The notes under the pieces are model-generated. The model did not search any database. It saw nothing but the letters and a program-made list of their open reading frames with translations, and had not been told where the DNA came from. 39,286 nucleotides of DNA from a virus: the IMG/VR virus record IMGVR_UViG_3300032214_000611, positions 1 to 39,286 of that record, one strand, 5' to 3'. A program made the translations under genes and the position numbers. This document shows positions 14,806 through 31,656 of the stretch, one piece after another. How positions within the stretch are numbered: the first letter of the stretch is position 1; each line of letters starts with the position of its first letter.

Positions 14806-14840
14806 GAAAGGGTGGGGGCCGAAGCCCCCGGTTAAAGTTG
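14806..14840 (-). terminator. UUCG-capped hairpin between early genes (copy 1)
   Basis: On the minus strand GGGGGCTTCGGCCCCC (14814-14829) forms a 6-bp GC stem with the very stable UUCG tetraloop. It lies 13 bases after the upstream stop and just before the next gene's leader. There is no U-tract, so it may act as an attenuator, processing site or mRNA-stability element rather than a classic intrinsic terminator. A nearly identical copy, including flanks, is at 29504-29519. Confidence 0.6.
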
Positions 14841-18669: not shown

Positions 18670-19932
18670 TCAATTATCCAATTCTGTCTTCTCAGTTATC
18701 ACAAGGTCACGGAAATCATCCGCAACCGAACTTACGGCCAATGCTGGCCGCTTGTCAGTGGCCGGAGCCACAGACGGCTTGCCCTCGCTCTGGGTGACGT
18801 GCGCAAGCACCTTCGCCCATTGCTGCGGGGATCCCTTCAGACGCTTCTCCGCCTCGGTCGGCGAGATCAACATCTTCTTGTACATGTCGGCGTCCTTAAG
18901 TCTAGCCGCCTTCAACGCCTTGGCAGCGTCTTCTTCGTCGGCCCACTTGCGGTTGCCGCGCTTGCCCTGCACGAGCTTGTAGCCCGGCACGTCCTTGCCC
19001 TCGAACAGGCGACGCTCGACCTCCGCGCGGACGGCCTGGCACCAGTCCTCCACCAGACCGACCTTGCTCATGGCGATCGACAGGTAGTTGTCGCCGAAGC
19101 CATCCGACACGTCGACCGGCACAAGGTCACGGAAGTCGTCGATCGTCGCCGCGCCGCTGTTGGCGACGACCTCGGCCATCTCCGCACGTAGGGCTGGGCA
19201 GTCTGCCTTCGCCTTGCAGAAGCGGCACTGCTTCTCGCCGGGTTTGAAGAAAGGCCCGGTCATGTCGTCCCCTACGGTCAGATCGAGGCTCTCCGCCAGA
19301 CGTACAAAGCCAGCGGCAGTGCGGACCTCTACGGCGAACTCCCGCAGTTCTTGCGCCGAGATGACGTGCTCACTGACGTGGTTGAGGCGCGGCATGTGGA
19401 TGACCATGACGATCTCGTCGAAGTCAGCCAGCACCGATGCGTACTCATACGCGCCGAGGGCGTACATCATCGGCTGCGGGTTGTCCTCGGCGTCGACGCG
19501 CACGCCCATGCCATACTTCAGGTCGACGACCGTCAGGCGGCGTGCGCCGGCGTGCATGATGATCGCGTCGGACGTACCCGTCGCGCCATGCTCACCGGTC
19601 AGGTGATCGATCGGCACGGCCTGCTCGACGAGCAGCTCTCCGCCTTCCGCATACTCTCGTACCAGAAGCGTGTAGCTACGCACGTAGTCGCACATGTCTG
19701 CGTCGACGACGAAGCTGTTCTCCCCCACGCGAATAGTCTCGCCCAGATAGTTGCTGGGGTCGAGCCTATCGCGCAGGGCCCAAGAAGCGAGCAGGTGCGC
19801 GGCGGAGCCTTCGTCCGCGTACACACTCGACTTGTCGGGATAGGAAGCCTCAAGGACGATGCTCCCCGGGCACGCCATCCATCGATGTGCGCCCGAGGGG
19901 CTCAGTTTTGCGTGATACTCACCGTCGCCCAT
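18670..19932 (-). CDS. DUF2800 PD-(D/E)XK nuclease-like protein with Fe-S cysteines
   Basis: 420 residues. RecB/Cas4-type features: EGSAAH (41-46), GTSD (119-122), VVDLKYG (135-141) with D137 and K139, and NPQPMMYALGA with Q153. Four cysteines are placed as in Cas4/AddB iron-sulphur nucleases: C21 near the N-terminus, and C236, C239, C245 in KQCRFCKAKADCPAL. The family is paired with DUF2815 in many phages and is expected to act as an exonuclease in phage recombination or replication. The ATG overlaps the upstream stop (TAATG), and it ends 3 bases before the DUF2815 ATG. Confidence 0.9.
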   Translation of the reverse strand: MGDGEYHAKLSPSGAHRWMACPGSIVLEASYPDKSSVYADEGSAAHLLASWALRDRLDPSNYLGETIRVGENSFVVDADMCDYVRSYTLLVREYAEGGELLVEQAVPIDHLTGEHGATGTSDAIIMHAGARRLTVVDLKYGMGVRVDAEDNPQPMMYALGAYEYASVLADFDEIVMVIHMPRLNHVSEHVISAQELREFAVEVRTAAGFVRLAESLDLTVGDDMTGPFFKPGEKQCRFCKAKADCPALRAEMAEVVANSGAATIDDFRDLVPVDVSDGFGDNYLSIAMSKVGLVEDWCQAVRAEVERRLFEGKDVPGYKLVQGKRGNRKWADEEDAAKALKAARLKDADMYKKMLISPTEAEKRLKGSPQQWAKVLAHVTQSEGKPSVAPATDKRPALAVSSVADDFRDLVITEKTELDN

Positions 19933-20321
19933 TACGCGTCCTTCAGGGCGGCGATCAGCTCAGGCCAGAGCTTCTCGTCAAGCTGTGAGGCCTTGGCCAC
20001 GCCGAACTGGCTTAGGATACCGCTGACGACGTCCCTGCCCTTGACGGCCAAGGTTTCGAGGACGAGGGCGGCGACGTCCTTGTCGAAGTCGAGGGTGGCT
20101 GTCTCGGGTTCGGGGGTCGGCTCAGGCTCGGGCGCGGCTGCCTCGGGCTCAGGCGCGGCCGCTACCGGCTCAGGTGCAGGTTCGGCCGCCTTGGCCTTGC
20201 GTGCCGGAGCCTTGGCCACTGGGGCCTCGGCCTGCGTCACTTGGAACTGGGCCGCGAGGGCCAGCACCTTGCCAGCCAGTTCGGACAGGCTGTCGGCCGT
20301 CACTTCTATTTTGTACGCCAT
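19932..20321 (-). CDS. Two-part early protein with Ala/Pro/Glu linker
   Basis: 129 residues: a short N-terminal helix (MAYKIEVTADSLSELAGKVL), a linker of AP/EP repeats (about residues 30-75) and a C-terminal helical domain (DKDVAALVLETLAVKGRDVV, ILSQFGVAKASQLDEKLWPEL). The C-terminal pattern resembles small phage proteins next to DUF2800/DUF2815 genes that are sometimes mislabelled as rRNA biogenesis proteins. Its role is unknown; proximity suggests an accessory of the recombination pair. It overlaps the upstream coiled-coil gene by 16 bases and the downstream ATG by one. Confidence 0.75.
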   Translation of the reverse strand: MAYKIEVTADSLSELAGKVLALAAQFQVTQAEAPVAKAPARKAKAAEPAPEPVAAAPEPEAAAPEPEPTPEPETATLDFDKDVAALVLETLAVKGRDVVSGILSQFGVAKASQLDEKLWPELIAALKDA

Positions 20322-20599
20322 TCTTCTATCTCCTTTGTCAGTTCTTCAATTTGCCATTCGAGCTTCATGAGGTCGTTGTCGGCGCGGTAAAGTTTGTCGT
20401 CGAGCTGGTTCGCCTGACGTTCGAACTCGGCGGCGCGTTCGCGCTGCTCTTCAATCTCCGCCTCATACTCTGCCGAGGATGCCTCTAGGCGCTCGGCCAA
20501 CACGATGGCAAGTTCGACGGTCGGGTCGTTATACGCGCGGCGGATCAGCTCGATGTCTTCGAGCTGCCGCAGGAAGTTGCGGTCGTTCAGAAGTTCCAT
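20306..20599 (-). CDS. Coiled-coil protein
   Basis: 97 residues, MELLNDRNFLRQLEDIELIRR followed by an almost continuous heptad region (residues about 30-95: AEYEAEIEEQRERAAEFERQ, DNDLMKLEWQIEELTKEIE). No catalytic motif. The start lies within the last codons of the upstream 59-residue gene, and its end overlaps the next gene. Likely a small scaffold or partner-binding protein; function unknown. Confidence 0.72.
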   Translation of the reverse strand: MELLNDRNFLRQLEDIELIRRAYNDPTVELAIVLAERLEASSAEYEAEIEEQRERAAEFERQANQLDDKLYRADNDLMKLEWQIEELTKEIEEWRTK

Positions 20600-20766
20600 G
20601 GTTGAGCCTTATACTGCTTGGCAAGGGCACGCGCCTCGCGCTTGCCGGTTACCCTGAAAGAGATGACGTGCGTGCGGTGCCCGTCGACGATGCGGTTGAG
20701 GTCCAGCACAGGGGAACGACTGGCGCTCCCCTGTGTGTATTCGGCGGCAAGTACGTTACAGATCAT
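20587..20766 (-). CDS. Small early protein, 59 residues
   Basis: MICNVLAAEYTQGSASRSPV, then LDLNRIVDGHRTHVISFRVT and a basic tail GKREARALAKQYKAQPWNF. It fills an otherwise empty slot between two coding genes, has a G-rich ribosome site (GGGGGGTG) 3 bases from ATG, and overlaps the next start by 13 bases. The mixed strand-helix pattern suggests a real small domain. No family recognised. Confidence 0.65.
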   Translation of the reverse strand: MICNVLAAEYTQGSASRSPVLDLNRIVDGHRTHVISFRVTGKREARALAKQYKAQPWNF

Positions 20767-20778
20767 AGCACCCCCCTG

Positions 20779-21093
20779 TTACGACTTGCGCGCCGAAACG
20801 CGGACCGACGTGCTGCCGCGCGTCGTCTTCTGGTTCTTGGAGAACCAGCGGCCGTCGACGCCAAGCTCACGCAGCTTGGCCTCTGCAGCCTTCGGGTCGA
20901 GCGACTGGCGATCGGCCGTGGTCGACACGGCTGCGCGGTAGTTGCTGCCCTCGATGACCTTGTCACCGGTGTTGATGAGCAGGGCGACGAGGTTGGCCTC
21001 GACCTGCTTGAGTTCGGCGATCTGCGCCTTGATGTCGCCCAAGCGGTCGACGACCGAGCCGGCCAGATCGATGGTGTTTGCGTTGGTAGCCAT
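20779..21093 (-). CDS. Conserved small phage protein
   Basis: 104 residues from MATNANTIDLAGSVVDRLGD. The N-terminal half is a coiled coil (DIKAQIAELKQVEANLVALL), followed by EGSNYRAAVSTTADRQSLD and a basic C-terminus (KTTRGSTSVRVSARKS). This layout is common among small early phage proteins of unknown function. The start follows AGGAGTACC and is preceded by the repeated early promoter, which argues against the longer in-frame extension. First gene of the transcript that runs toward DUF2800, GapR and polymerase, so it may be replication-linked. Confidence 0.85.
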   Translation of the reverse strand: MATNANTIDLAGSVVDRLGDIKAQIAELKQVEANLVALLINTGDKVIEGSNYRAAVSTTADRQSLDPKAAEAKLRELGVDGRWFSKNQKTTRGSTSVRVSARKS

Positions 21094-21113
21094 TTGGTAC
21101 TCCTGTCTTTCGT

Positions 21114-21157
21114 GTTGCTGACACACGTCATATAGGGACTGCAATTTTAGATTGCAA
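21114..21157 (-). promoter_or_regulatory. Repeated early promoter module, copy B
   Basis: Minus strand: -35 TTGCAA (21152-21157), 17 bases, -10 TATATG (21129-21134), 7 bases, TCAGCAAC (21114-21121). A second box TTGCAG is 13 bases inside the first. It sits just behind the primase-helicase stop and drives the conserved 104-residue gene and the replication genes beyond it. Confidence 0.7.
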
Positions 21158-21165
21158 TACCCTTT

Positions 21166-23202
21166 TTACTCAAAAAAGAAAATTTTTCCGTTCTCCATTT
21201 TAAGGGGCCCGTCCTTCTCGCGGCTGAGGCTGTGTATCGCCCGCACCAGCGACTGCCGTCGGATGTCGCGCTTGCCCGGTTCGGGCTCCGGCAGATCGGC
21301 GACGGCCTTGTCGATAAGCTCGTGCGCCGGGACGACGCTGCGGTCGTCGAACAGGGTCATGACCTCGAGGACGTGGTTCTCCATGCGCCCGCGCTTCTTG
21401 ACGCCCTTGCGATCATCCGCGTCCTCTTTGCGCTTCACGCCCTCGGCTGGGACTGCGACGCAGCTGGTCACGGGGTCGCCGTCTAGGTCGATGCCCAGAT
21501 CGATGACTTCGAGCTTCAGGCCCCAGCGCAGGCCGTCCTCGCCATCCTTCATCTTCTCGATGACGATCTCGCGCTCGCCGCTCTCGTGACGCAGCACTTC
21601 GATCTGGACGTCGGCGGCGGCCTTCAGGCCAGACCAGCCGCGCGAACCCTTGCTGAGATCCTTGCCTGCGTGGTGGACGACAAGGTTCATGGCCTCCGTC
21701 GCGTCGTGCAGCAGGTTGATGTTGCCGAGCGCGCGGCCCATGTCCTCGGACGTGTTCTCGTTCGCGCCGGGCGTGACCTGCGCCAGCGTGTCGATGATAA
21801 TCAGATCGATGTCCACGCCGAGGTTCTTGATCTCGGCCAGCACTTCGGAGATGTCGTCCGCGTCGAGGAAATTAGGCGCGGCCGTTATGACGTGCAGATT
21901 GGCCACCTCGCGCAGGTCGAAGCCGTAGTGCTGCGCATAGGCCTCGGCGCGCTTGCCGATCCCGCTGCCACCCTCTGCGGCGATGATCACGACGTTGCCC
22001 TTGCCCGTGCGTCTCTCACGCCACGCGACGCCGCGCGCGATTGAGAAGGCCAGATCCAGAGCCACGAAGGTCTTGCCACTGCCCGACGCGCCGAACAGGA
22101 CGCCCAGACGCGCCTTGGGCAGCACGCCCTTGATGAGCCACGACATGGGCGGGCGCTGGGTGAGGTCGTATATCGGCACTGGGCCGAAGCGGCCTAAACT
22201 CTTTTTCGGCAGGTCAGCCATGATCGCCTCGGCCTTGGCGAGCACTTCTTTGCGGCTACCTGCCTCGGAAGGGCGGGCTCCGGCATCCTTGGCCATCTTG
22301 ATGACGGACGCCATGGTCACCTGCCGCCGGCGCTGCCCTGCGCGACGCTCGAAGCTATCCCAATGCGTGCGCAGGCCTTCGGTGCTGGGGTAGGAGTACC
22401 CGCCCGAGGACCACTCGTCCCACAGCTCGAAGCCGGTGTCGTCACCGTCTGTCTCGTGGTGCAGGGCCATGCCGACGCGGATCCAGTCGTCCCGGCCCAT
22501 GTCGGCGTCGAGCGCAGACAGCAGCTCCTCCATCTGCTCGACCGACAGGCCGAGCCGTGGCTCGCGGCCGAGCATAAAGTCTTCGGGGTCGACCTCGGCC
22601 TGCGGCTGGGCGCAACCGAAGCGTTTTTCGGATAGGTTGCGCACATCGTCGCCCGCAGGCGCGATGTAGTTCGGCCCGACCACTAGGTCTGACACGGGCA
22701 GGATGTTGCCGGTGAAGGTCACGAAGCCCGAGGAGCTGAAGGTCTCGAAGCCGTACTGGTCTTCGGTCGCCTTGCTCTTGCGGTTGCCCAGATCGCCCTT
22801 CAGGGCGGCCCTGATGCCCTTCCCGCTCGGGCTGTACTCGGCATAGGTGCGGCCGACGATCTGCTCGATCTCGGTCGGCAGAGAGCCGTCGACGCCAACG
22901 CAGTTGTCGAAGTCGAGGAAGGTGTAGCCGCAGCCCGGCAGCGGTGCGAAGCCCACGCCGTCATAGCCCATGCGCACAGCGGCATCGCGCGCTGCGACGA
23001 AGGTGGTCAGGCGTGCCCGGTCGACCGAGCCGCCTTGCTGGCCGTGCCTCCGGCTGCCGTCGGCCCAATAGGGCACCTTGCGCGGCTTCGGCTCGTCCTC
23101 ATACTGCTCGAAGCGCCAGATCAGCCACGACGATAGCTCGCGCAGCTCCTCTGGCACCTCGACCGCAGTGAGGTGGGGCGTAATCGCCCTGACGTTGTTC
23201 AT
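21166..23202 (-). CDS. Primase-helicase (AEP-like primase, PriCT-like, RepA-type ATPase)
   Basis: 678 residues from MNNVRAITPHL, chosen for its GGAGGA site. The N-terminal primase-polymerase-like domain has the acidic pair in FLDFDN (D97, D99) and YSPSGKGIR (123-131), where many relatives have His in place of R131. A PriCT-like segment follows (WIRVGMALHHETDG, FELWDEWSSGG; 240-268). A RepA/DnaB-like AAA ATPase has Walker A GASGSGKT (371-378) and Walker B DLIIIDT (466-472). The C-terminal ~76 residues (RGRMENHVL, GKRDIRR, SLSREKDGPLK) form a separate winged-helix-like module that is also present in the plus-strand gene at 30214. It likely primes and unwinds at the phage fork. Confidence 0.9.
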   Translation of the reverse strand: MNNVRAITPHLTAVEVPEELRELSSWLIWRFEQYEDEPKPRKVPYWADGSRRHGQQGGSVDRARLTTFVAARDAAVRMGYDGVGFAPLPGCGYTFLDFDNCVGVDGSLPTEIEQIVGRTYAEYSPSGKGIRAALKGDLGNRKSKATEDQYGFETFSSSGFVTFTGNILPVSDLVVGPNYIAPAGDDVRNLSEKRFGCAQPQAEVDPEDFMLGREPRLGLSVEQMEELLSALDADMGRDDWIRVGMALHHETDGDDTGFELWDEWSSGGYSYPSTEGLRTHWDSFERRAGQRRRQVTMASVIKMAKDAGARPSEAGSRKEVLAKAEAIMADLPKKSLGRFGPVPIYDLTQRPPMSWLIKGVLPKARLGVLFGASGSGKTFVALDLAFSIARGVAWRERRTGKGNVVIIAAEGGSGIGKRAEAYAQHYGFDLREVANLHVITAAPNFLDADDISEVLAEIKNLGVDIDLIIIDTLAQVTPGANENTSEDMGRALGNINLLHDATEAMNLVVHHAGKDLSKGSRGWSGLKAAADVQIEVLRHESGEREIVIEKMKDGEDGLRWGLKLEVIDLGIDLDGDPVTSCVAVPAEGVKRKEDADDRKGVKKRGRMENHVLEVMTLFDDRSVVPAHELIDKAVADLPEPEPGKRDIRRQSLVRAIHSLSREKDGPLKMENGKIFFFE

Positions 23203-23213
23203 GTCGTCCTCCA

Positions 23214-23444
23214 CTAGCCTGCGCTGTGCATGGCGGTCAGCAGCTGGGCGATGTCCGACCGGACCATGGTCTTGTGGTCGACGCCATACTTGTTCTGGAT
23301 GATGAGGGCGCGGTCCATCGGCACGTACCCGCGCTTCTTCCACTGGTAGATGACTTGGTGCGACACGCCCATGTCCTGCGCGAAGGCGATGATGCCTCCG
23401 TTGTCGCGGATGGCGGCGTTCAGGATCTCGATCTGCGGTGTCAC
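23214..23444 (-). CDS. Cro/YdaS-like HTH regulator
   Basis: 76 residues from a GTG that overlaps the upstream stop as GTGA. AAIRDNGGIIAFAQDMGVSH, QVIYQWKKRGYVPMDRALII and QNKYGVDHKTM fit the Cro/YdaS helix-turn-helix pattern (helix, AxxMGVSHQxIYQWKKRG turn and recognition helix, then xxP-x-RA). It probably binds operator DNA as a dimer. No integrase or second repressor is visible, so a lysogeny switch is not supported; control of early promoters is more likely. Ends 12 bases before the primase-helicase start. Confidence 0.85.
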   Translation of the reverse strand: MTPQIEILNAAIRDNGGIIAFAQDMGVSHQVIYQWKKRGYVPMDRALIIQNKYGVDHKTMVRSDIAQLLTAMHSAG

Positions 23445-23617
23445 TGCGCCGCCCTCACTTCTTGGCGGAAGCGTTCCTCGCTGATGCCCCAGACACGTTC
23501 CTCGGCCATGAAGCGGGCGCGCAGGGTGCGCAGGTTGTTGTCGATCTCGTGCTTGCGGCGCTCGAGCTTGTCGCGCTCGTTGAATAGGCGCTGGGCCTCC
23601 TTGGTAATGTCACTCAT
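23441..23617 (-). CDS. Small charged helical protein, 58 residues
   Basis: MSDITKEAQRLFNERDKLER, then a coiled-coil-like stretch and EERVWGISEERFRQEVRAAQ. It exactly fills the space between two genes, overlapping the upstream stop region and the downstream GTG (GTGA). Heptad spacing suggests a dimerising helix. Function unknown. Confidence 0.65.
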   Translation of the reverse strand: MSDITKEAQRLFNERDKLERRKHEIDNNLRTLRARFMAEERVWGISEERFRQEVRAAQ

Positions 23618-23813
23618 AGCTGACGCCTTTCTTGCCTATGCGGCCGGTCTCTGGGTTGCGGAAGTGCGCCTTGCTGAGGCGCTCCTCCAGCTGCTTGATG
23701 GTGGCGACGCGCTTGAAGTACTCGCGCGTCAGGTTGTCGATCTCGCGATCGCGTCGGGCCAGCGTGCGCTTGAGATTGCGCAGCGCCAGCCATGGTAGAA
23801 ATATATCGAGCAT
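23610..23813 (-). CDS. Small protein with hydrophobic N-terminus and coiled coil
   Basis: 67 residues: a hydrophobic start (MLDIFLPWLALRNLKR), an amphipathic helix with heptads (REIDNLTREYFKRVATIKQL) and a basic end (NPETGRIGKKGVSYE). The ATG overlaps the upstream stop (TGATG), and its end overlaps the next gene by 8 bases. The N-terminus is short for a membrane anchor but could bind a membrane or partner. Function unknown. Confidence 0.65.
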   Translation of the reverse strand: MLDIFLPWLALRNLKRTLARRDREIDNLTREYFKRVATIKQLEERLSKAHFRNPETGRIGKKGVSYE

Positions 23814-24088
23814 CAGTCCTTCTCCCTCAAAAGGTCAATGAGTTCCGCGATGACGTCCTTGGGGCGCGGGGCCGACACCTCTTGGGTGTAGGCGCGGCTG
23901 CCGGGCACGGAGTGCCAGATCTCGAACTCGCGGCCAATGTCGTGGATGGTGTAGGGCGTCAGCTCCTCTTCGAAGAACACTTCGAAGGTGGTGTTCTCGT
24001 CGTCCCCGTCCCAGCGGACATAGATGTCGGCGTCAAGGTCGCGGGCGGCGCTGTTGAGAAGCTCTGCGGTGTATTCTTCGTGGCACAT
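23813..24088 (-). CDS. Hypothetical early protein, acidic
   Basis: 91 residues from MCHEEYTAELLNSAARDLD. Strand-rich middle (DADIYVRWDGDD, TTFEVFFEEELTPYTI, EFEIWHS) and a C-terminal helix (KDVIAELIDLLREKD). Strongly acidic, a feature shared by DNA-mimic proteins, though the evidence here is composition only. It has a ribosome site (GGAGAG) and a copy of the repeated early promoter upstream. Confidence 0.7.
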   Translation of the reverse strand: MCHEEYTAELLNSAARDLDADIYVRWDGDDENTTFEVFFEEELTPYTIHDIGREFEIWHSVPGSRAYTQEVSAPRPKDVIAELIDLLREKD

Positions 24089-24102
24089 GATTACTCTCCG
24101 GT

Positions 24103-24159
24103 GTTGCTGATAGGCGACCTGTAATCAATGGGGAAAGGCTTTGCAAGCCTAAATTGCAA
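24103..24159 (-). promoter_or_regulatory. Repeated early promoter module, copy C
   Basis: Two perfect TTGCAA boxes lie 13 bases apart (24154-24159 and 24141-24146). Using the inner box as -35, a 17-base spacer leads to TACAGG (24118-24123), then 7 bases to TCAGCAAC (24103-24110). The box pair overlaps the last codons of the upstream gene. Confidence 0.55.
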
Positions 24160-24439
24160 ACCGGTTGGGGTGGTGCAGTTTGATCGCCTTGAGCAGGGCT
24201 GCGGACCCGTTGGCGGCGCTGGTGCGGGCCGTGCGCTCGTAGTTGTCGGTCGAGATCGGCGGGTTGCGTTTGGCACGCTTGGCGCGCTTCTCCTCGGCCT
24301 CCGCCGCGTTCTTGATCTTCTTGCGCATGTCGACGATGTAGCTGCGCTTCACGCCGAAGATCGAGGCGAGGTAGGTGTCGTCGCTGATGTACCCGCAGGC
24401 GCGGATGATGTCTTCGTCTGTTGCTGATTTCCAAGTCAT
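24149..24439 (-). CDS. Small HTH-like basic protein
   Basis: 96 residues. DEDIIRACGYISDDTYLASI and FGVKRSYIVDMRKKI resemble a helix-turn-helix (turn near FGVKRSY), followed by a basic helix rich in Lys/Arg/Ala and a Ser/Thr-Asn tail (RTARTSAANGSAALLKAIK). Ribosome site TAGGAGA is 6 bases before ATG. A DNA-binding role is plausible but not proven. Its 3' end contains part of the next promoter. Confidence 0.7.
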   Translation of the reverse strand: MTWKSATDEDIIRACGYISDDTYLASIFGVKRSYIVDMRKKIKNAAEAEEKRAKRAKRNPPISTDNYERTARTSAANGSAALLKAIKLHHPNRFAI

Positions 24440-24540
24440 GATTGTCTCCTATGTTGTCGCCACGTTGCTAGGCATTCGCACCATACCATGTGGTGCCCAT
24501 CTCTCCCCCTTGGTGCTTGATACTTCCGCTGCCTAGCCAT
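24436..24540 (-). CDS. Possible 34-residue basic peptide
   Basis: Reads MARQRKYQAPRGRDGHHMVW and continues CECLATWRQHRRQS. The stop overlaps the next ATG as ATGA, and GGGGTAA precedes the start. It is short and its composition is biased, so this could be chance. The gap from 24541 to 24585 contains only a short CCCCG/CGGGG stem. Confidence 0.35.
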   Translation of the reverse strand: MARQRKYQAPRGRDGHHMVWCECLATWRQHRRQS

Positions 24541-24585
24541 TTACCCCGCCGTGGCTGTCGGGGTCAAAAGGAGACGGGGGTGGGA

Positions 24586-24663
24586 TTAGAAAATTATGTC
24601 GGCGGGATCCCATTCATATATGTCCCAACCGAAATTTTCTTGAAGGAAGCGGCGTAGGGTCAT
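24586..24663 (-). CDS. Possible 25-residue peptide
   Basis: MTLRRFLQENFGWDIYEWDP followed by ADIIF. The ATG overlaps the upstream membrane-peptide stop as ATGA, the usual coupling pattern in this region. The amphipathic, aromatic-rich sequence is not low complexity. Too short for family assignment. Confidence 0.45.
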   Translation of the reverse strand: MTLRRFLQENFGWDIYEWDPADIIF

Positions 24664-24791
24664 TTCATTAGCCACTGCATGATGGCGTCATACAGGTCGT
24701 ATTTCGCGTTGTTGAAGTTGTAGAATAGGAAAAAGCACATGCCGATGAAGCCCACCCCACTGCTTACGTTCACTTCGCTTTTGTTGCTCAT
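24660..24791 (-). CDS. 43-residue single-pass membrane peptide
   Basis: MSNKSEVNVSSGVGFIGMCF, then FLFYNFNNAKYDLYDAIMQWLMK. One hydrophobic span (about residues 13-26) follows a polar N-terminus. A GGGAGA ribosome site lies 7 bases from ATG. Could be a holin-like or superinfection-exclusion peptide; only the membrane segment is visible. Confidence 0.6.
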   Translation of the reverse strand: MSNKSEVNVSSGVGFIGMCFFLFYNFNNAKYDLYDAIMQWLMK

Positions 24792-24812
24792 GTCAAAAAT
24801 CTCCCGCTTTCT

Positions 24813-25085
24813 TTACGTGTCGCTGGAACGTGTAAAGGTTTCGTGTTCGCCTGCTTCAATATCGTCGGCGGCTTCCTCGTAAATGTCGTCATGGTGACCG
24901 CCTTGCGACCGCAGCCACGCCACGATTTTGGCGCGTTCTTCTGCACCATCGGCTTGCCGTCCGTCGTAATACCCTTGGTCGTATCCGTATTGGCGGTGAC
25001 GGGCGAAGGCTCGGACGCGGCGGTCATCGTTGTGTTTTTCATTTAGCAGCGGCTGTCGCTTTGTCGTGAAGGCTGGATGGTTCAC
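24813..25085 (-). CDS. Small conserved-looking protein, start uncertain
   Basis: Up to 90 residues. The credible part is RAFARHRQYGYDQGYYDGRQ followed by EERAKIVAWLRSQGG and EEAADDIEAGEHETF. I recognise the IVAWLR...IEAGEH pattern from small bacterial and phage proteins of unknown function. The only in-frame start upstream is GTG at 25085, inside the preceding gene and without a proper ribosome site. An ATG at 25042 that overlaps the preceding stop as ATGA opens a different frame. A frameshift or non-standard start is possible. Confidence 0.55.
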   Translation of the reverse strand: MNHPAFTTKRQPLLNEKHNDDRRVRAFARHRQYGYDQGYYDGRQADGAEERAKIVAWLRSQGGHHDDIYEEAADDIEAGEHETFTRSSDT

Positions 25086-25341
25086 CCTCAGTCTTTAGGT
25101 AAAGCGAGGCAGCGGCGTTGCGGTCATCTTGCGTTACAGCCATTAGAACCTCACGCAGCGCCATTGCTTCATTGAACGCATCACGCTCTTTGGCGACCTT
25201 CGCAACGCGCTCGAAACTTTCACTTAATGGAAGGTTGTGGAAATTGTCGGCTGTCGGGTCAATAGCCAGCTTACCTGCACCTATGTCGCCTTCCTCTTGC
25301 TTCGCCATGTTGATGCACCATTCCTTGCTGATTTCAGTCAT
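25039..25341 (-). CDS. Hypothetical protein
   Basis: 100 residues from MTEISKEWCINMAKQEEGD, helical, with NLPLSESFERVAKVAKERDA and LREVLMAVTQDDRNAAASLY. Ribosome site GGAGAAGAG. It belongs to the 24586-26064 patch whose genes use GGAGA-type sites, not the AGGAGTACC leader, and which looks less GC-rich. Function unknown. Confidence 0.65.
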   Translation of the reverse strand: MTEISKEWCINMAKQEEGDIGAGKLAIDPTADNFHNLPLSESFERVAKVAKERDAFNEAMALREVLMAVTQDDRNAAASLYLKTEGEPSSLHDKATAAAK

Positions 25342-25389
25342 CGCTCTTCTCCCTTATCTCCAGCCCACGGGCTTCCAGTGCGGTGCGGG

Positions 25390-25689
25390 TCACAGCGACC
25401 TCATGACAAGCGAAAGGTTGTCCAGTCCGTCCACGCGCGCCATTGGAACCTTGCTATCAAAATAGTGCGTAGCGTAGTTGTTCGCGCCGACTATCTCGCC
25501 GTCGCAGTCAACCGTGACTGTGCAATATCCTGAATATCGACAGGCACCTTGCACCTTGTCATAGTGCGAAACGATAACGTGCATATGCCCGTTACGAGCA
25601 CCAAAGCCGCCCCGAATAGGGTAAACGTTTCCAACCATATCTGGGCCCGTTGCGGGAATGGGGATGTTCGTATCAATTTCGATTTTCAT
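25390..25689 (-). CDS. Hypothetical protein, beta-rich
   Basis: 99 residues: MKIEIDTNIPIPATGPDMVG, then NGHMHVIVSHYDKVQGACRY, TVTVDCDGEIVGANNYATHY and a C-terminal helix. Alternating hydrophobic strands suggest a small beta fold. A GGGAGAA site lies about 5 bases from ATG. The start overlaps the stop of the upstream gene (ATGA). No family recognised. Confidence 0.68.
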   Translation of the reverse strand: MKIEIDTNIPIPATGPDMVGNVYPIRGGFGARNGHMHVIVSHYDKVQGACRYSGYCTVTVDCDGEIVGANNYATHYFDSKVPMARVDGLDNLSLVMRSL

Positions 25690-25967
25690 TTCGTTTCTCC
25701 CAAGGCTGCGCTGATTGCGTCATCTACAACAGATGCACAGCGGTCGTAGGTGTCTACCTGCCACCAATCCCATGCGTCCTTAATCTCCTTCACCGCCTCA
25801 CGCAGCCGCGCATTGTCGGCTTGCAGGGCTTCGATGCGACCAGTGGCGTCGGCTTTTGCTTGATTGAAGGCGATAACCCATCTTTCATTTGCGGCTCGCA
25901 GCTCTTCAATGGTGTTTGCCTGTGCCTCGCAGTTGGGGCAAAAGTTGGTGCGGATGTTAGGTATCAT
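25686..25967 (-). CDS. Coiled-coil protein with N-terminal CPNC knuckle
   Basis: 93 residues: MIPNIRTNFCPNCEAQANTI, a coiled coil (EELRAANERWVIAFNQAKAD, RIEALQADNARLREAVKEIK) and a Trp/Asp-rich end. A lone CxxC could bind metal as a dimer. The start overlaps the stop of the upstream 31-residue membrane peptide region by a few bases. This resembles short phage proteins of unknown function that carry a RIEALQADNARLREAV helix. Confidence 0.68.
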   Translation of the reverse strand: MIPNIRTNFCPNCEAQANTIEELRAANERWVIAFNQAKADATGRIEALQADNARLREAVKEIKDAWDWWQVDTYDRCASVVDDAISAALGETK

Positions 25968-25968
25968 G

Positions 25969-26064
25969 TCAATATATCCCTAAAAAGTAGACCCCGATCG
26001 CCCAGACGGCCAATATGCTGGCGCTGACGATCAGGATCCCGGCGACTGTGCGTAGGCTATTCAC
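25969..26064 (-). CDS. 31-residue hydrophobic membrane peptide
   Basis: MNSLRTVAGILIVSASILAV then WAIGVYFLGIY, almost entirely one transmembrane helix with a positively charged N-terminus. The GTG start lies 8 bases inside the upstream regulator gene, and the stop overlaps the next ATG region. The strong hydrophobic pattern makes chance less likely. A holin-like or signalling peptide is possible; no direct evidence. Confidence 0.55.
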   Translation of the reverse strand: MNSLRTVAGILIVSASILAVWAIGVYFLGIY

Positions 26065-26659
26065 CGCTGCGATCTTTAGATAGCAGTTGCGACGCGGCGA
26101 GGATGGCGTCGATGCGCTGTTTCTCAGCGTAACCTAACGCCCCGCCAGCCTCGATGTCGTCGGCGATGTTTGACCATCCGCCTATGCGGTAGAATGTCGC
26201 CAGAACCTGCCGATGGGCTTCATAGTCGACGTCCAAGTCGGGGTATCTCGCGATCGCCCGAGTTTTGAAATCATCAAGATCTTCAATCAGCAGCATCTGG
26301 GCAGTGATTTCCGAGAGATAATTTTGCAAATGCTTCCTCAGTTCGTCGATCAAAGCCTGTTGGTCTTGGTCGTTCTCAGGTGGCACTGTCGCCTCAACCT
26401 CCAACTTGTTCTCAGGCGGCTGTACGCGGATACGATAGGCCTTGATGGCGTCGCGGTGGTGCGTGTCTCCGTTGCTCTTCGTGACCTTCACCGGACGCTT
26501 GATGAGTTCGAGTAGGCCCGCGTCATGCATGCTGCGACACTTGGCGTGTATCTGCGTCTCACTGCACTTAAAGTGGTTGGCAATCTCCGTGACGGAGCAG
26601 GTGCCGCGAGCCGCCAAGTGCTGGCGGATCTGGTCTGTGGTTACAGCTGTTCTAGTCAT
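26057..26659 (-). CDS. Winged-helix regulator-like protein
   Basis: 200 residues. The N-terminal HTH is clear: VTTDQIRQHLAARGTCSVTE, IANHFKCSETQIHAKCRSMH, DAGLLELIKR followed by a wing-like KVTKSNGDTHHRD. The C-terminal two thirds is a helical domain (DQQALIDELRKHLQNYL and IADDIEAGGALGYAEKQRID). The ATG is preceded by AGGAGTACC. It probably controls early or middle transcription, or host genes. Confidence 0.78.
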   Translation of the reverse strand: MTRTAVTTDQIRQHLAARGTCSVTEIANHFKCSETQIHAKCRSMHDAGLLELIKRPVKVTKSNGDTHHRDAIKAYRIRVQPPENKLEVEATVPPENDQDQQALIDELRKHLQNYLSEITAQMLLIEDLDDFKTRAIARYPDLDVDYEAHRQVLATFYRIGGWSNIADDIEAGGALGYAEKQRIDAILAASQLLSKDRSGE

Positions 26660-26685
26660 TGGGGTACTCCTCTTTCAGTTGGTGG

Positions 26686-26964
26686 TCATATCAGCCCGGC
26701 CAGCGCCTCGTTGACGCGGCCGATGTTCACGTTGAAGATATGCGCGATCTCCTGCTGCGTGAAGTGCCGCTGCCACGCGAAGAAGGTGCGGATCTCGGTC
26801 GCCAGCTCCGGCGTCATAGGCTCGCTGGCGTTGGGCCTGCGTGCGTTCTTGCGCTGCTTCTTGCGGTAGACGGTGTAGCCCCTCTTCTCCAGCGATGCCA
26901 GCAGCGTGCGGGCGTGGTCCTCGGGCATGCCCGCGTCCATCAATGCTCTCAAACCTTCCTTCAT
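26686..26964 (-). CDS. Small protein with C-terminal HTH
   Basis: 92 residues from MKEGLRALMDAGMPEDHART, chosen for its GGAGA site. The middle is basic (RKKQRKNARRPN). The C-terminus WQRHFTQQEIAHIFNVNIGR then VNEALAGLI is a textbook helix-turn-helix (QQEIAxxFNVNxGRVNEAL). Likely a DNA-binding accessory. The upstream 25-residue peptide's TGA runs directly into the ribosome site. Confidence 0.72.
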   Translation of the reverse strand: MKEGLRALMDAGMPEDHARTLLASLEKRGYTVYRKKQRKNARRPNASEPMTPELATEIRTFFAWQRHFTQQEIAHIFNVNIGRVNEALAGLI

Positions 26965-26975
26965 GTCGTGTCTCC

Positions 26976-27053
26976 TCACCGACGCAGTTCGTCGATCGCT
27001 ACAGGGAGCATGCACAGGATGATCCCGATTAGTATGAATGCTTCAAGGGGCAT
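26976..27053 (-). CDS. 25-residue membrane peptide
   Basis: MPLEAFILIGIILCMLPVAI then DELRR. One hydrophobic helix with a charged C-terminus. The upstream leader (AAAGTACCgccATG) is a degenerate form of the early ribosome leader, and a weaker copy of the early promoter stands before it. The stop is followed directly by the next gene's ribosome site. Confidence 0.5.
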   Translation of the reverse strand: MPLEAFILIGIILCMLPVAIDELRR

Positions 27054-27068
27054 GGCGGTACTTTCGTT

Positions 27069-27111
27069 GTTGCTGATGCGCCTGTGTGGCACAGACGGTG
27101 GCCGGCCGCAA
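27069..27111 (-). promoter_or_regulatory. Degenerate early promoter module, copy D
   Basis: TTGCGG (27106-27111), 17 bases, CACACA (27083-27088), 6 bases, TCAGCAAC (27069-27076). Spacing and the final motif match the other copies, but the hexamers are poor and the inner TGCA box is missing. Confidence 0.35.
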
Positions 27112-27149
27112 GACGGTGGGTTTTGTCCAGTGTCGTCTAGCGACGTCTG

Positions 27150-27389
27150 CTATTTGATCCGCCACACAATTAAGGTGTGGACAAGATTATTGATGACCGT
27201 CTTTTTCCTGCTCTTGGTCTTGGCGCGGACCATCGTCGTGCGCCACTTCCAGCCTGCGGCGTTGTCCTTGTTCAGGGCGTAGACGCGTGCCCGGACGCGG
27301 ATGATGTCGAGCTGGTCGAGTTGGTAGCGTGCACCCTCTGCCAGTGGCAGGCGGAGGATGTCGTCGGCGGATGGTGGGTTGTTGGTCAT
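27150..27389 (-). CDS. Small basic hypothetical protein
   Basis: 79 residues. An N-terminal acidic/hydrophobic half (PSADDILRLPLAEGARYQLD) and a basic strand-rich C-terminus (GWKWRTTMVRAKTKSRKKTV then VWRIK). Full early leader AGGAGTACCGACCAATG. The composition suggests nucleic-acid binding; family unknown. Confidence 0.7.
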   Translation of the reverse strand: MTNNPPSADDILRLPLAEGARYQLDQLDIIRVRARVYALNKDNAAGWKWRTTMVRAKTKSRKKTVINNLVHTLIVWRIK

Positions 27390-27406
27390 TGGTCGGTACT
27401 CCTTGT

Positions 27407-27868
27407 TTATGGGCGGTCTGCGAAGGCGAGGATCAGCTCGCGTACCTTGTTGATAGAGGCCTTGCGCTTGGCGATCGAACCCCCGACGTCGATACCCAGA
27501 AAGTCCTCGGGGCGCGCATCGGCGTTCTGGTAGGTATACAGTGCGAGCACATGCATCTCGTAGGCCAGCAGCAGGCTGTTAAGCTCAAGGCGGCGCTGCT
27601 GCCTTGCGACCTCCGCTGGTGGCGGCAGGGCGGCAGTGACGTTGAAGATGATCTCCTCGACCTCACGGATCGCCTTGGGGCCGATGCCGGGCTGCTTACC
27701 AAGTTGGCGGTTGATCAGCGCCATCTGGGCTTCGTGTAGGGTGCGCACGCCGCAATCCTTAAGCGCCTTCAGGGTGCGTACGCTCAGTTCGACATCGTCG
27801 ATGCTGACTGTCTTCAGTCGCTCGTCGAGGGCGCGGATCATCGCCTGCAGTCGGACGTCTGTGGTCAT
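27407..27868 (-). CDS. RNA polymerase alpha-CTD-like protein
   Basis: 153 residues. Residues about 22-75 (SIDDVELSVRTLKALKDCGV, RTLHEAQMALI, KQPGIGPKAIREVEEI) closely follow the alpha C-terminal domain of bacterial RNA polymerase: LSVR, GxRTLxE, PxxGxKxxxEVEE. Aligned to the E. coli alpha-CTD, the DNA-contact positions R265, G296, K298 and E302 are kept as R31, G63, K65 and E69; N268 and S299 become K34 and A66. A helical C-terminal region follows (RRLELNSLLLAYEMHVLALY). It may bind UP-like DNA or compete with host alpha-CTD to redirect transcription; that is inference. Leader AGGAGTACTGAGACATG. Confidence 0.75.
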   Translation of the reverse strand: MTTDVRLQAMIRALDERLKTVSIDDVELSVRTLKALKDCGVRTLHEAQMALINRQLGKQPGIGPKAIREVEEIIFNVTAALPPPAEVARQQRRLELNSLLLAYEMHVLALYTYQNADARPEDFLGIDVGGSIAKRKASINKVRELILAFADRP

Positions 27869-27871
27869 GTC

Positions 27872-28138
27872 TCAGTACTCCTCTCCACAGGTTTCGCAGA
27901 ACTCCGGCAGCCCAATCTCGACAGTGAAGCCCGCCGCGCGCAGGACGCCGACGGTCAGGCGCGATGTCAGGGTGTCGTAGCGGGCTTGCAGCGCGTGCAG
28001 TTCCTCTACTTTAGCGGCACGTTTCTGGTACTCACGCTCCAGACTTGCAGATTGCTGCTCGACTTTCTCGGTGAGCCGGTCGATCTTCCACTGCAGCTCC
28101 TCTGGGCCGCCTTCAGGCGTGTCTTCGGTCATGATCAT
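27872..28138 (-). CDS. Coiled-coil protein with C-terminal CxxC
   Basis: 88 residues: MIMTEDTPEGGPEELQWKID, a long coiled coil (TEKVEQQSASLEREYQKRAA to LQARYDTL) and an end FCETCGEEY with a CxxC pair. The start overlaps the upstream stop as ATGA, and the leader GGGAGTACCGACCAATG is itself the last codons (GSTDQ stop) of that gene. It sits next to the alpha-CTD-like gene, a possible partner. No family recognised. Confidence 0.7.
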   Translation of the reverse strand: MIMTEDTPEGGPEELQWKIDRLTEKVEQQSASLEREYQKRAAKVEELHALQARYDTLTSRLTVGVLRAAGFTVEIGLPEFCETCGEEY

Positions 28139-28524
28139 TGGTCGGTACTCCCTTTGTCGATTTCGTCGGCCAGCTCACGCAGCATGGCTGACACGTCAGA
28201 GGGAGGGAGGCCCACATACTCTTTGGCCGTATGCGCTGCGGAGAGCACCAATTCGGCCAAGGGTAAGCGGAAGTTGGCGAGGTGGTCGTCGGAGGTCGGT
28301 GAACTGACGTAGATATCTATCACTCTATCGGGGATGTCTAATTTACAGCACACCACGCCCGGGCGCGTGAACCACTTCGAGACGACCTGTTCGAAGACAT
28401 CATAGGCCGCGTCGCTCATGACGCGGCTATACTCTTCGTTATCGGAGATCGCCTCGCACAATTCGCTGTTTCTCGTATCGCAATAGTCTAGGGCGGCGTC
28501 GCGGTAGGGGTTGTCGTATGCCAT
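28135..28524 (-). CDS. Hypothetical early protein
   Basis: 129 residues from MAYDNPYRDAALDYCDTRNS. Helical N-terminus, central strands (VVCCKLDIPDRVIDIYVSSP) and a C-terminal helix (VSAMLRELADEIDKG). Leader AGGAGTACTGAGACATG. Its last five codons form the next gene's ribosome leader. Function unknown. Confidence 0.7.
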   Translation of the reverse strand: MAYDNPYRDAALDYCDTRNSELCEAISDNEEYSRVMSDAAYDVFEQVVSKWFTRPGVVCCKLDIPDRVIDIYVSSPTSDDHLANFRLPLAELVLSAAHTAKEYVGLPPSDVSAMLRELADEIDKGSTDQ

Positions 28525-28527
28525 GTC

Positions 28528-28788
28528 TCAGTACTCCTTCTGCTGTTGCTTGATGGCGATCGCCTCGGCGTAGATGTCGTCGCGGATGACGGTCAGTAGG
28601 TTGAGGCGGCTGGTCATGATGCCGCGATCGTAAGTGCACTTGCTGGGCTCGGTCGGGTAGTCGCGGCCGTTCGGCATGACCTGCCGCAGGGCCTCCATGG
28701 CGTCGATCAGGTGGTCGAGGGCCTTGAGGCGCGGCTCGATCAGGTCGGCGGCGCTGGATCCGTTGATGTTGAGCTGGGGGGTGATCAT
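28528..28788 (-). CDS. Hypothetical early protein
   Basis: 86 residues from MITPQLNINGSSAADLIEPR, helical (LKALDHLIDAMEALRQVM; SRLNLLTVIRDDIYAEAIAI). The start follows AGGAGTACCATCCAATG, so longer in-frame extensions upstream are rejected. Its last codons AAG GAG TAC TGA create the next gene's leader AGGAGTACTGAGAC. Function unknown. Confidence 0.7.
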   Translation of the reverse strand: MITPQLNINGSSAADLIEPRLKALDHLIDAMEALRQVMPNGRDYPTEPSKCTYDRGIMTSRLNLLTVIRDDIYAEAIAIKQQQKEY

Positions 28789-28801
28789 TGGATGGTACTC
28801 C

Positions 28802-29035
28802 TTACCATTCGTAGCTGGTGACGGTGACGCCGAAGGCGACGTCAAGGAACTTGTGGGCCCACGCTGCGGTGACGGGCTTTTCGACGCGCTTGGCGTTCGG
28901 GCGGTAATCCCAGATCGTGAAGCTCTCGCCGCGATCCGAGACCAGCAGCTCCACCTTGTCGGCGAGGCGGCAGCGCGCAGCGCCGCTCTCGTTGTTCGTG
29001 GCGATCTCGATTGCGTCGTCGTAGTGGTAGGGCAT
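28802..29035 (-). CDS. Hypothetical early protein
   Basis: 77 residues from MPYHYDDAIEIATNNESGAA; strand-rich middle (KVELLVSDRGESFTIWDYRP) and a short helix (VTAAWAHKFLDVAFGV). Leader GGAGTACCATCCAATG and a copy of the early promoter upstream. No family recognised. Confidence 0.7.
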   Translation of the reverse strand: MPYHYDDAIEIATNNESGAARCRLADKVELLVSDRGESFTIWDYRPNAKRVEKPVTAAWAHKFLDVAFGVTVTSYEW

Positions 29036-29053
29036 TGGATGGTACTCCGTGTT

Positions 29054-29094
29054 GGTGTTGAACAGTCTATGGACGATGCCACGAAGCATTGCAA
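29054..29094 (-). promoter_or_regulatory. Repeated early promoter module, copy E
   Basis: TTGCAA (29089-29094), 17 bases, CATAGA (29066-29071), then TCAACACC (29054-29061). The inner box is degenerate (TGGCAT) but again 13 bases inside. The final motif variant TCAACACC is shared with copy F. Confidence 0.55.
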
Positions 29095-29097
29095 TAG

Positions 29098-29280
29098 CTA
29101 ATTTGAAAAAAGGCGCGCGTCGATCTCGATCTGCGCCTCCTGCAGCGTCGGCGCGGTGAAGCGCTCGCCGTCCAGCCAGCCGGCGTCCTCGCCCAGCCAT
29201 ACGGGCTCGTAGTCAGGCGACACGGCCTCGTAGGCCTGCTGGTAGGGGCACCAGTCGATCGTCCAGTTGCGGTAGTCCAT
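29098..29280 (-). CDS. Small acidic protein, 60 residues
   Basis: MDYRNWTIDWCPYQQAYEAV, SPDYEPVWLGEDAGWLDGER and TLQEAQIEIDARLFSN. The pattern (short strands, then TxxEAQxEID) resembles small phage proteins of unknown function. The ATG is 4 bases after the upstream stop. No strong ribosome site, so probably translationally coupled. Confidence 0.65.
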   Translation of the reverse strand: MDYRNWTIDWCPYQQAYEAVSPDYEPVWLGEDAGWLDGERFTAPTLQEAQIEIDARLFSN

Positions 29281-29283
29281 GGC

Positions 29284-30045: not shown

Positions 30046-30088
30046 GGTGTTGATGCCCCCTCTTAGACGCTGCAACGCAGGGTTGCAA
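30046..30088 (-). promoter_or_regulatory. Repeated early promoter module, copy F (first leftward promoter)
   Basis: TTGCAA (30083-30088), 17 bases, TAAGAG (30060-30065), 6 bases, TCAACACC (30046-30053). Inner box TTGCAG is 13 bases inside. It is the outermost copy, next to the divergent control region. Confidence 0.65.
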
Positions 30089-30127
30089 TACACAAAATGC
30101 ACAGGGGTGAAAAAAAGTTTGGGGGCT

Positions 30128-30213
30128 GGATTGCATCACGGCGCAGCACGCCGTATCACGCTGTTGTGCGTCGCATTTAGGCACGCACGATACCTATGGA
30201 AAGGTCCGCCACT
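30128..30213 (+). promoter_or_regulatory. Divergent control segment before the zinc/primase-tail gene
   Basis: ACGGCG and CGCCGT (30137-30153 area) form a short stem. A plus-strand promoter is possible (TTGCAT, 17 bases, TATCAC), but the match is modest. The TTGCAT box repeats the motif of the leftward promoters. Confidence 0.3.
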
Positions 30214-30807
30214 ATGGCATATTTGAATAAAAGTGAAGCATTTGCGTTTATTAGCTCCCGCTACCCGCGTGGAGCCGATGTCGGGACGAAGGTCTACTAT
30301 CACGGCGACAGCACGCAGCGGCGTGTTGAGTTCACTGTTGCAGCCGAACAGGTGTGGCGCACAGACACAGGCGAGCGGGTCATGGGCCTCATTTGGTCTG
30401 GCGTATGCGCTACGTGCCAAGAGGGCTTCTTCCAGCCTTCACCTACGCACCCCAAGGAGCTGAACGAGCATTGCTCCTTCTGCTGCTCGCAGCGGTACGA
30501 CACTTATAACGAGGCTGACATTAAAATGTTCGACCCGAGGAAGGTCGCGGGGGTCGGCGGGCGTGCGGCCGTCAAGAGGCGTGGACGCATGGAGAACCAC
30601 GTCCTCGCGATCTGTAGCCTGTTCGTAGACATGGCTGTCGTAGACGCCGGAACGCTGGTGGATAGGGCGGTTGAGGCCCTGCCGCCGCCGGAGGCAGGAA
30701 AGCGGGACATCCGCCGACACAGCATCGTTCGCGCTATACAGAGCCTTAGCCGCGAGAAGGATGGGCCGCTGAAACTGGAAGGTGGAAAGATCTTCTTATT
30801 TGAGTAA
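30214..30807 (+). CDS. Zinc-knuckle protein carrying the primase-helicase C-terminal module
   Basis: 197 residues from MAYLNKSEAFAFISSRYPRG. ATG 30214 has AAAGG 9 bases upstream; ATG 30196 would add six residues. The N-terminal ~110 residues carry C65-A-T-C68 and H86-C87-S-F-C90-C91, consistent with a zinc-binding domain. Residues about 121-197 match the last ~76 residues of the minus-strand primase-helicase at roughly 53 of 76 positions by my count, including RGRMENHVL, GKRDIRR and SREKDGPLK. It is isolated on the plus strand in the control region. It may bind the same DNA or partner as the primase-helicase and act as a loader, competitor or regulator; that is inference. Confidence 0.82.
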   Translation: MAYLNKSEAFAFISSRYPRGADVGTKVYYHGDSTQRRVEFTVAAEQVWRTDTGERVMGLIWSGVCATCQEGFFQPSPTHPKELNEHCSFCCSQRYDTYNEADIKMFDPRKVAGVGGRAAVKRRGRMENHVLAICSLFVDMAVVDAGTLVDRAVEALPPPEAGKRDIRRHSIVRAIQSLSREKDGPLKLEGGKIFLFE

Positions 30808-30834
30808 AAAAGGCGCTGCAATTTAAGGCTGCGA

Positions 30835-30867
30835 TTTACATCACGTAATTTTATTACGCGGTGTAAA
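30835..30867. repeat. 33-bp imperfect palindrome
   Basis: Arms 30835-30849 and 30853-30867 match at 13 of 15 positions around TTT; the core CGTAAT-TTT-ATTACG is perfect. Typical size and symmetry for a dimeric regulator operator. AT-rich in a GC-rich genome. Confidence 0.7.
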
Positions 30868-30994
30868 TTGCGGTGTAAATACACGCTGGGGGGCAAAAAG
30901 GCGTGATGCAGCGATGCGGCGAGGGGAGTGTGCAGCACGGGGGTCGCGCTGCATATTTGACGGAAATCAGCCGTTTTTTGGCAATTTACACCGC
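30858..30994. repeat. Separated 14-bp inverted repeat
   Basis: GCGGTGTAAATTGC (30858-30871) and its exact complement GCAATTTACACCGC (30981-30994). A further partial copy GCGGTGTAAAT begins at 30870. The pair could support looping between two bound proteins. Confidence 0.65.
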
Positions 30995-31044
30995 GAAAAT
31001 CTCTGCACGCTGCAAAACGCGATGTACGCTGCAATGCATCAGGA

Positions 31045-31080
31045 GCTGGGGGAGGGGTTGGTTATGACCAACCCCCCAGC
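31045..31080 (+). terminator. GC-rich hairpin before the terminase genes
   Basis: GGGGTTGGT (31054-31062), loop TATG, ACCAACCCC (31067-31075), with outer pairing of GCTGG and CCAGC. Very stable but no T-tract follows, so termination is uncertain; it could also be a processing or packaging-related structure. Confidence 0.5.
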
Positions 31081-31221
31081 CGTGATGCACGCGATGCGAT
31101 GATGTGATGATGCGCCCCGGGGTGCTGACCCCCTCGGATTTGGTGGGCTTGCACGTCGGCCGGATCGGTCGTATATGTGGGGCGACTGGAAGCACTGTCA
31201 CGATTACGGAGCAAGCAGACG

Positions 31222-31656
31222 ATGGCCGGCGGACGACCGAGTACCTACACCGAAGAGATGGGCAACCTGATCTGTGACAAGCTCACAGAGGGCATGAGCG
31301 TGCGCAAGCTGTGCAAGATGGATGGCTTCCCGAACCCGTCGACGATCTATGTGTGGATCGATCGCTTCCCCGAGTTCGCCGAGCGCTACGCCCGCGCGCG
31401 CGAAACCGCCACGGAGGACATGCTCGAGGACATCCTCGAGATCGCCGACGACCCCACGATCGACACGCAGGAGAAGCGCGTGCGCATCGACACGCGCAAG
31501 TGGGCCATGGGCAAGCTCAAGCCGAAGAAGTACGGCGAGAAGACCACGCACGAGGTCGGCAACAAGGACGGCGAGACGCTGAAGGTCGACAACGGCATCG
31601 ACACCGTCGCCCTCACGCTGCAGATCGCCGATGCGCTGCTCAACAAGGGTGAGTGA
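31222..31656 (+). CDS. Terminase small subunit
   Basis: 144 residues from MAGGRPSTYTEEMGNLICDK. Helix-turn-helix near the N-terminus (GMSVRKLCKMDGFPNPSTIY, VWIDRFPEFAERYARARE), then a helical middle and the KWAMGKLKPKKYGEKTTHEV segment typical of small terminases. It binds the packaging site and feeds DNA to the large subunit. ATG 31222 has GGAG 13 bases upstream and is preferred to an in-frame extension. Its stop overlaps the large-subunit GTG (GTGA). Confidence 0.9.
   Translation: MAGGRPSTYTEEMGNLICDKLTEGMSVRKLCKMDGFPNPSTIYVWIDRFPEFAERYARARETATEDMLEDILEIADDPTIDTQEKRVRIDTRKWAMGKLKPKKYGEKTTHEVGNKDGETLKVDNGIDTVALTLQIADALLNKGE

Follow-up and report, generated by a model that had tools for sequence, protein, structure and literature searches.

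We analysed a window of 39,286 nt, the whole stretch of DNA under study, which covers positions 1-39,286 of the IMG/VR virus record IMGVR_UViG_3300032214_000611. It contains a small gene, here called gene X, whose product ends in a copy of the C-terminal module of the primase-helicase encoded by the same genome (Table 1). By BLASTP, X residues 117-197 and primase-helicase residues 598-678 were identical at 56 of 81 positions (69%, E 3e-34), which rules out chance similarity; the roughly 53 matches over the last ~76 residues reported in the initial annotation proved to be exactly 53 of 76. As that annotation also stated, the N-terminus is different: the first 115 residues of X showed no similarity to the window's primase-helicase and carry cysteines arranged as C65-x2-C68 ... 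C87-x2-C90-C91. The opposite strands and isolated site of X were likewise confirmed, with a 414-nt non-coding region adjoining the gene. The primase-helicase itself belongs to a leftward early block that also encodes a DNA polymerase, an exonuclease, a ssDNA-binding protein and a helicase. X is a real gene, since its homologues were 46-99% identical and their differences fell preferentially at third codon positions. Elsewhere in the window, the minus-strand genes at 14828, 28825, 29072, 29518 and 30064 have a common leader, GGAGTACCATCC(A/C)ATG, and the same GGGGCTTCGGCCCCCACCCT stem precedes those at 14828 and 29518.

Table 1. Features of the gene X locus and of the primase-helicase gene in the window
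Feature	Position	Strand
Gene X, 197-aa protein with a zinc-ribbon-like N-terminal domain and a C-terminal winged-helix module (predicted)	30214..30807	+
RBS-like GGAAAGG ahead of X	30198-30204	
X N-terminal domain, about residues 1-115: predicted helix and small beta-barrel, C65/C68/C87/C90; orthologous among X proteins	30214..30558	+
X C-terminal module, residues 117-197, predicted winged helix; RDIRRHSIVRA signature in predicted recognition helix	30562..30804	+
Primase-helicase, PriCT_2 and AAA_25, 678 aa; bears the parent copy of the module	21166..23202	-
Primase-helicase C-terminal module, residues 598-678	21169..21411	-
Terminase small subunit (terS), conserved neighbour downstream of X	31222..31656	+
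Iteron region between X and terS, 9 TGCANC sites on both strands	30808..31221	
TACATCACG	30837	
TACACCGCG	30857 and 30987	
TGCATCACG in iteron region	30902 and 31081	
GC-rich palindrome, core 31047-31083, inverted TGCATCA iterons on its flanks	31030..31095	
More TGCA-type sites, located between X and the first early gene; one is TGCATCACG at 30132	30065..30145	

An AlphaFold2 model of the X module, built with 48 aligned sequences, confidently predicted residues 121-197 to form a winged helix of three helices and a beta wing (pLDDT 93-98). Its closest structural neighbour was the C-terminal winged helix of MCM4 (8b9d_4; Z 9.0 over 66 residues, rmsd 2.0), and further neighbours included the winged helices of ORC2 and MecI, as well as cullin and MukE. 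Across X proteins and primases, conservation within the module was highest at RDxRR....R, which lies at the predicted recognition helix. We regard the module as a predicted winged-helix domain that would bind DNA. The cysteine spacing of the N-terminal domain is of the zinc-ribbon type, and one relative weakly matched Zn_ribbon_8; the name 'zinc knuckle' given earlier refers to the wrong fold, as X lacks the CCHC pattern C-x2-C-x4-H-x4-C. In the model this domain (pLDDT mostly 74-90 to residue 90, pTM 0.67) looks like a helix and a small barrel with Cys pairs. It had no clear structural match (Foldseek E > 0.2; best VIA Z 3.9), which is no proof of a new fold, and full-length X was not named by any profile in Pfam, PHROGs, NCBIfam or PADLOC.

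The 414 nt separating X from terS hold 9 TGCANC sites where 1.65 are expected (P 0.001, dinucleotide shuffles), and no other 300 bp of the window are as dense in these iterons. The palindrome and its inverted iterons together form a long dyad (z -6.4), and inverted iterons around a palindrome of differing sequence were also present in G052, G004, G030, G003, G034 and G053. Iteron arrays also occur in relatives that have no X. GC skew followed transcription direction and was for this reason uninformative. In the more distant L085, L089, L090 and L092, TGCA-A/C-C arrays lie downstream of the primase gene and away from terS, a SaPI-like layout.

About 80 relatives of the primase-helicase were found in IMG/VR, and in 8 of the 50 records of theirs that we examined for a second module, a second copy lay on the opposite strand. 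With the addition of a profile search, the zinc-plus-module architecture that the initial annotation proposed to look for in other phages was found in at least 12 further distinct proteins, and two proteins consisted of the module only (short-X); a search for more short-X members returned only these two. In every contig that was long enough, X proteins were encoded directly upstream of terS and opposite to the primase, with a gap of -4 to 461 nt. Thus, the two-gene arrangement, whose absence from relatives would have spoken against the earlier idea, is kept in many of them. Among 25 terS-flanking regions, this slot held a zinc-X in six, a short-X in two, a stand-alone AAA_25 ATPase in three and none of these in 14. 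The three ATPases (L083:1019-2149:-, G045; L077:609-1766:-, G040; L078:609-1766:-, G041) replace X before terS in slots where TGCANC iterons are absent; the gene in L077 is accompanied by inverted repeats of the TGTCCGGA type. X was absent from cultured-phage records, including the Caulobacter phages RW, KcrB, RLK and GB2A, whose primase is about 50% identical to that of the window, and a scan of phage RW located the module in the primase only. No prophage copies of X were found in GTDB genome contigs. Phage RW does encode an unannotated protein, GP013c (L106:4225-4803:-), which has a CATC...CEAC zinc-ribbon motif without the module and stands alone on the minus strand amid early genes.

The history of the module was examined in a maximum-likelihood tree of 61 modules, in which row L002 has the same sequence as the primase module of the window. 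Twelve X modules formed a group of their own. The X module of the window joined its own primase module (98/90), that of L093 joined the L093 primase module (100/98), and that of L191 joined primases of the L005/L009 type (99/66). The module thus grouped with the primase of its own genome in both testable cases, the window and L093, and for both the own primase ranked first of 47. A single clade of all X modules was rejected (AU p 0.0023), which rules out one ancient duplication kept in parallel, and so was a single clade of the window, L093 and L191 X modules (AU p 0.0026). However, the zinc domains of these same three proteins formed one clade (98/96). This indicates that, on more than one occasion, a primase module has replaced or converted the module of one and the same ancestral X gene. 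In the window the event was not recent, since only 40 of 81 third codon positions are identical between the X and primase modules. The X module of subfamily 2 is distant from the module of its primase.

Comparison of close relatives revealed that X and the neighbouring repeats change while the primase stays constant. L068, L069 and L070 share the primase recognition helix, and identity among them is 97-99.9% for the primases and 90-98% for the flanks. The stretch from the first early gene to terS nevertheless differs in all three: it holds an N=A array and no X in L068, a short-X and an N=C array in L069, and a zinc-X and a dyad in L070. Similarly, L072 and L073 have primases that are 99.7% identical and X is present in L072 only. 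To judge from these sequences, gene X and the repeats act as a specificity cassette that is exchanged as a unit. The nearest relative of the window, G002 (L032), lacks X, and window position 30115 is joined there to 30839. The two share 98% identity in the early region and the C-terminal half of the primase, but only 68.5% in the array segment. To the right of X they are therefore not isogenic, and no excess divergence of iterons over spacers was found between them (p 0.49). The primase gene of L032 is a mosaic when compared with window 18693-29282, its N-terminal half being clearly different.

In homologous arrays, TGCA-C was retained and base N was altered in concert at about ten sites. Between G003 and G034, N changed from G to A at 9 of 10 sites, and between G006 and G032 at 8 of 9, while in same-type control pairs it was unchanged (G003/G006, 12/13; G034/G032, 11/11). 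A conserved dyad, CACTTAA...AAGTTG, whose covarying arms are made of GCANCA repeats, lies upstream of X in L035, L040, L051, L070, L227, L228, L239, L241 and L245. In subfamily 2, the arms of a dyad just upstream of X covary, with 99% of cells paired, nine double changes and none of 500 shuffles as high, and the covarying positions are of the same kind as the switching base N. When the primase helix residue after RD was set against iteron base N in 27 genomes, 15 combined I with G, 11 T with A or C, and one (L093) T with G, an association that comes down to 3 independent contrasts after phylogeny (sign test p 0.25). L068 and L069 count against specification of N by this residue: their N differs and the primase helix is the same. 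The primase module alone therefore does not dictate the array type.

On balance, we favour a reading in which X is an accessory protein that binds the iterons through its copy of the helicase tail and regulates how the helicase is loaded at a probable origin. We propose such an array-binding loading gate because initiator DNA-binding domains on other proteins, and regulatory short forms, are known. The C-terminal winged helix of X, copied from the origin-recognition tail of its own primase-helicase, would bind the iteron/dyad region at 30.07-31.2 kb. The zinc-ribbon N-terminus would stand in the place of the helicase and may provide a protein-protein or oligomerisation function. X could then block the helicase tail from its sites by occupying them, or hold the helicase there, and in either way gate its loading. 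The probable replication origin at which this control would act has the early block on one side and the packaging genes on the other. Here we infer DNA binding by X, the origin function and the direction of regulation, and roles as accessory activator and as competitor appear about equally likely. The recognition of the same DNA site by both modules, suggested in the initial annotation, gains indirect support from the recurrent renewal of the module from the own primase, the adjacent iterons and the exchange of gene and repeats together. As to its suggestion that X could mark the origin, X is not needed for this in general, since arrays are also present in relatives without it, and X is thus dispensable. 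Because some near-identical phages have no X, it cannot be a loader on which the whole group depends. Nor can it be a mere duplicate: array and X are swapped jointly, with the primase unchanged. A bolder version, which we hold only tentatively and rather doubt, is that the exchangeable cassette sets origin specificity in an incompatibility- or immunity-like way. It would combine an iteron array carrying a phage-specific code base with an orphan copy of the origin-recognition domain of the helicase, which would be re-copied again and again from the resident helicase, would thereby track helicase specificity and would decide which co-infecting relatives fire.

It is also conceivable, although we consider it unlikely, that X is a transcription regulator, either a repressor or an early/late switch, of divergent early and terminase promoters, with the repeats as its operators and the module as a reused DNA-binding domain. 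X does sit between divergent transcription units, several structural neighbours of the module, such as MecI, are repressors, and the exchange of a DNA-binding protein and its sites as a cassette resembles that of immunity regions. However, arrays persist without X, in genomes where the primase-helicase is the only known protein to bear the module, the X module is renewed from the helicase, and in three relatives the same slot holds a helicase-like AAA_25 ATPase. Furthermore, a search for sigma70-like promoters near X found none, which is weak evidence.

Two further explanations seem improbable to us, and to a similar degree. X might be an origin-directed weapon or interference factor, comparable to ICP1 Odn, whose helicase-like tail would recognise the origins of competitors or satellites and whose zinc domain would be the effector. 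It shares with Odn the combination of an initiator-type DNA-binding domain and an unrelated domain (PMC8263062), and the rapid, concerted switching of iterons among close relatives would fit escape from attack; yet such a factor would hit its own origin, since its specificity is closest to the primase of its own genome. X also matched no nuclease family in the profile libraries, its N-terminal fold was unmatched (best Z 3.9), and it has no conserved nuclease-like residues besides Cys/His. Alternatively, the module may serve mainly as a protein-protein interface, for instance with the polymerase, the ssDNA-binding protein or the primase-helicase, while another factor binds the repeats. Winged helices often make protein contacts, as the cullin, MukE and ORC neighbours illustrate, and genomes with an unchanged primase module can differ in array type. 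Against this, the invariant residues of the module are RDxRR...R, at the predicted recognition helix, and array and X are exchanged together.

The favoured reading, that of a loading gate, suggests that a phage may control the loading of its own helicase through a decoy or partner made from the tail of that helicase. The relatives provide a near-isogenic natural series in which the same primase is combined with no X, a short X or a zinc X and with matching repeat types. This makes it possible to test directly how AAA_25 primase-helicases recognise origins and which code underlies their specificity.

Phage P4 also combines an origin-recognising primase-helicase, alpha, with a small accessory regulator, Cnr, which resembles X in function only. 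Cnr is not known to be a copy of the tail of alpha. The P4 cnr gene controls plasmid copy number (PMC8628076). In plasmid pIGRK, a long and a short protein have a common DNA-binding region, and the short form RepR' is a negative regulator that antagonises the long RepR (PMC6854812); RepR' comes from the same gene, whereas X is a separate gene with a domain of its own. ICP1 Odn (Gp88) is an origin-directed nuclease that carries the DNA-binding domain of a replication initiator, and together with PLE RepA_N it offers a precedent for an initiator domain on another protein and for modular exchange of origins and initiators (PMC8263062). In contrast to X, which has no recognised nuclease domain and whose module matches the helicase of its own genome, Odn targets the origin of a parasite. 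SaPI Rep and SCCmec Cch2 are similar in that a mobile-element helicase directs its C-terminal domain to short origin iterons, and the isolated domain binds specifically (PMC7581432). X, too, has a repeat cluster in the non-coding DNA beside it (9 sites, 1.65 expected); the AAA domain that would provide the ATPase/helicase core of the SaPI Rep/Cch2 type is absent from X and present in the window's primase-helicase. The helicase family here is AAA_25/RepA-like, unlike SaPI Rep and Cch2. In those systems the tail exists only within the helicase and the origin lies downstream of the helicase gene, whereas here a second, free-standing tail is fused to a zinc domain and encoded beside the repeats, 7 kb from the helicase. 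X is thus an undescribed form of a known theme, that of the iteron-binding tails of SaPI Rep/Cch2 and of Odn-type chimeras.
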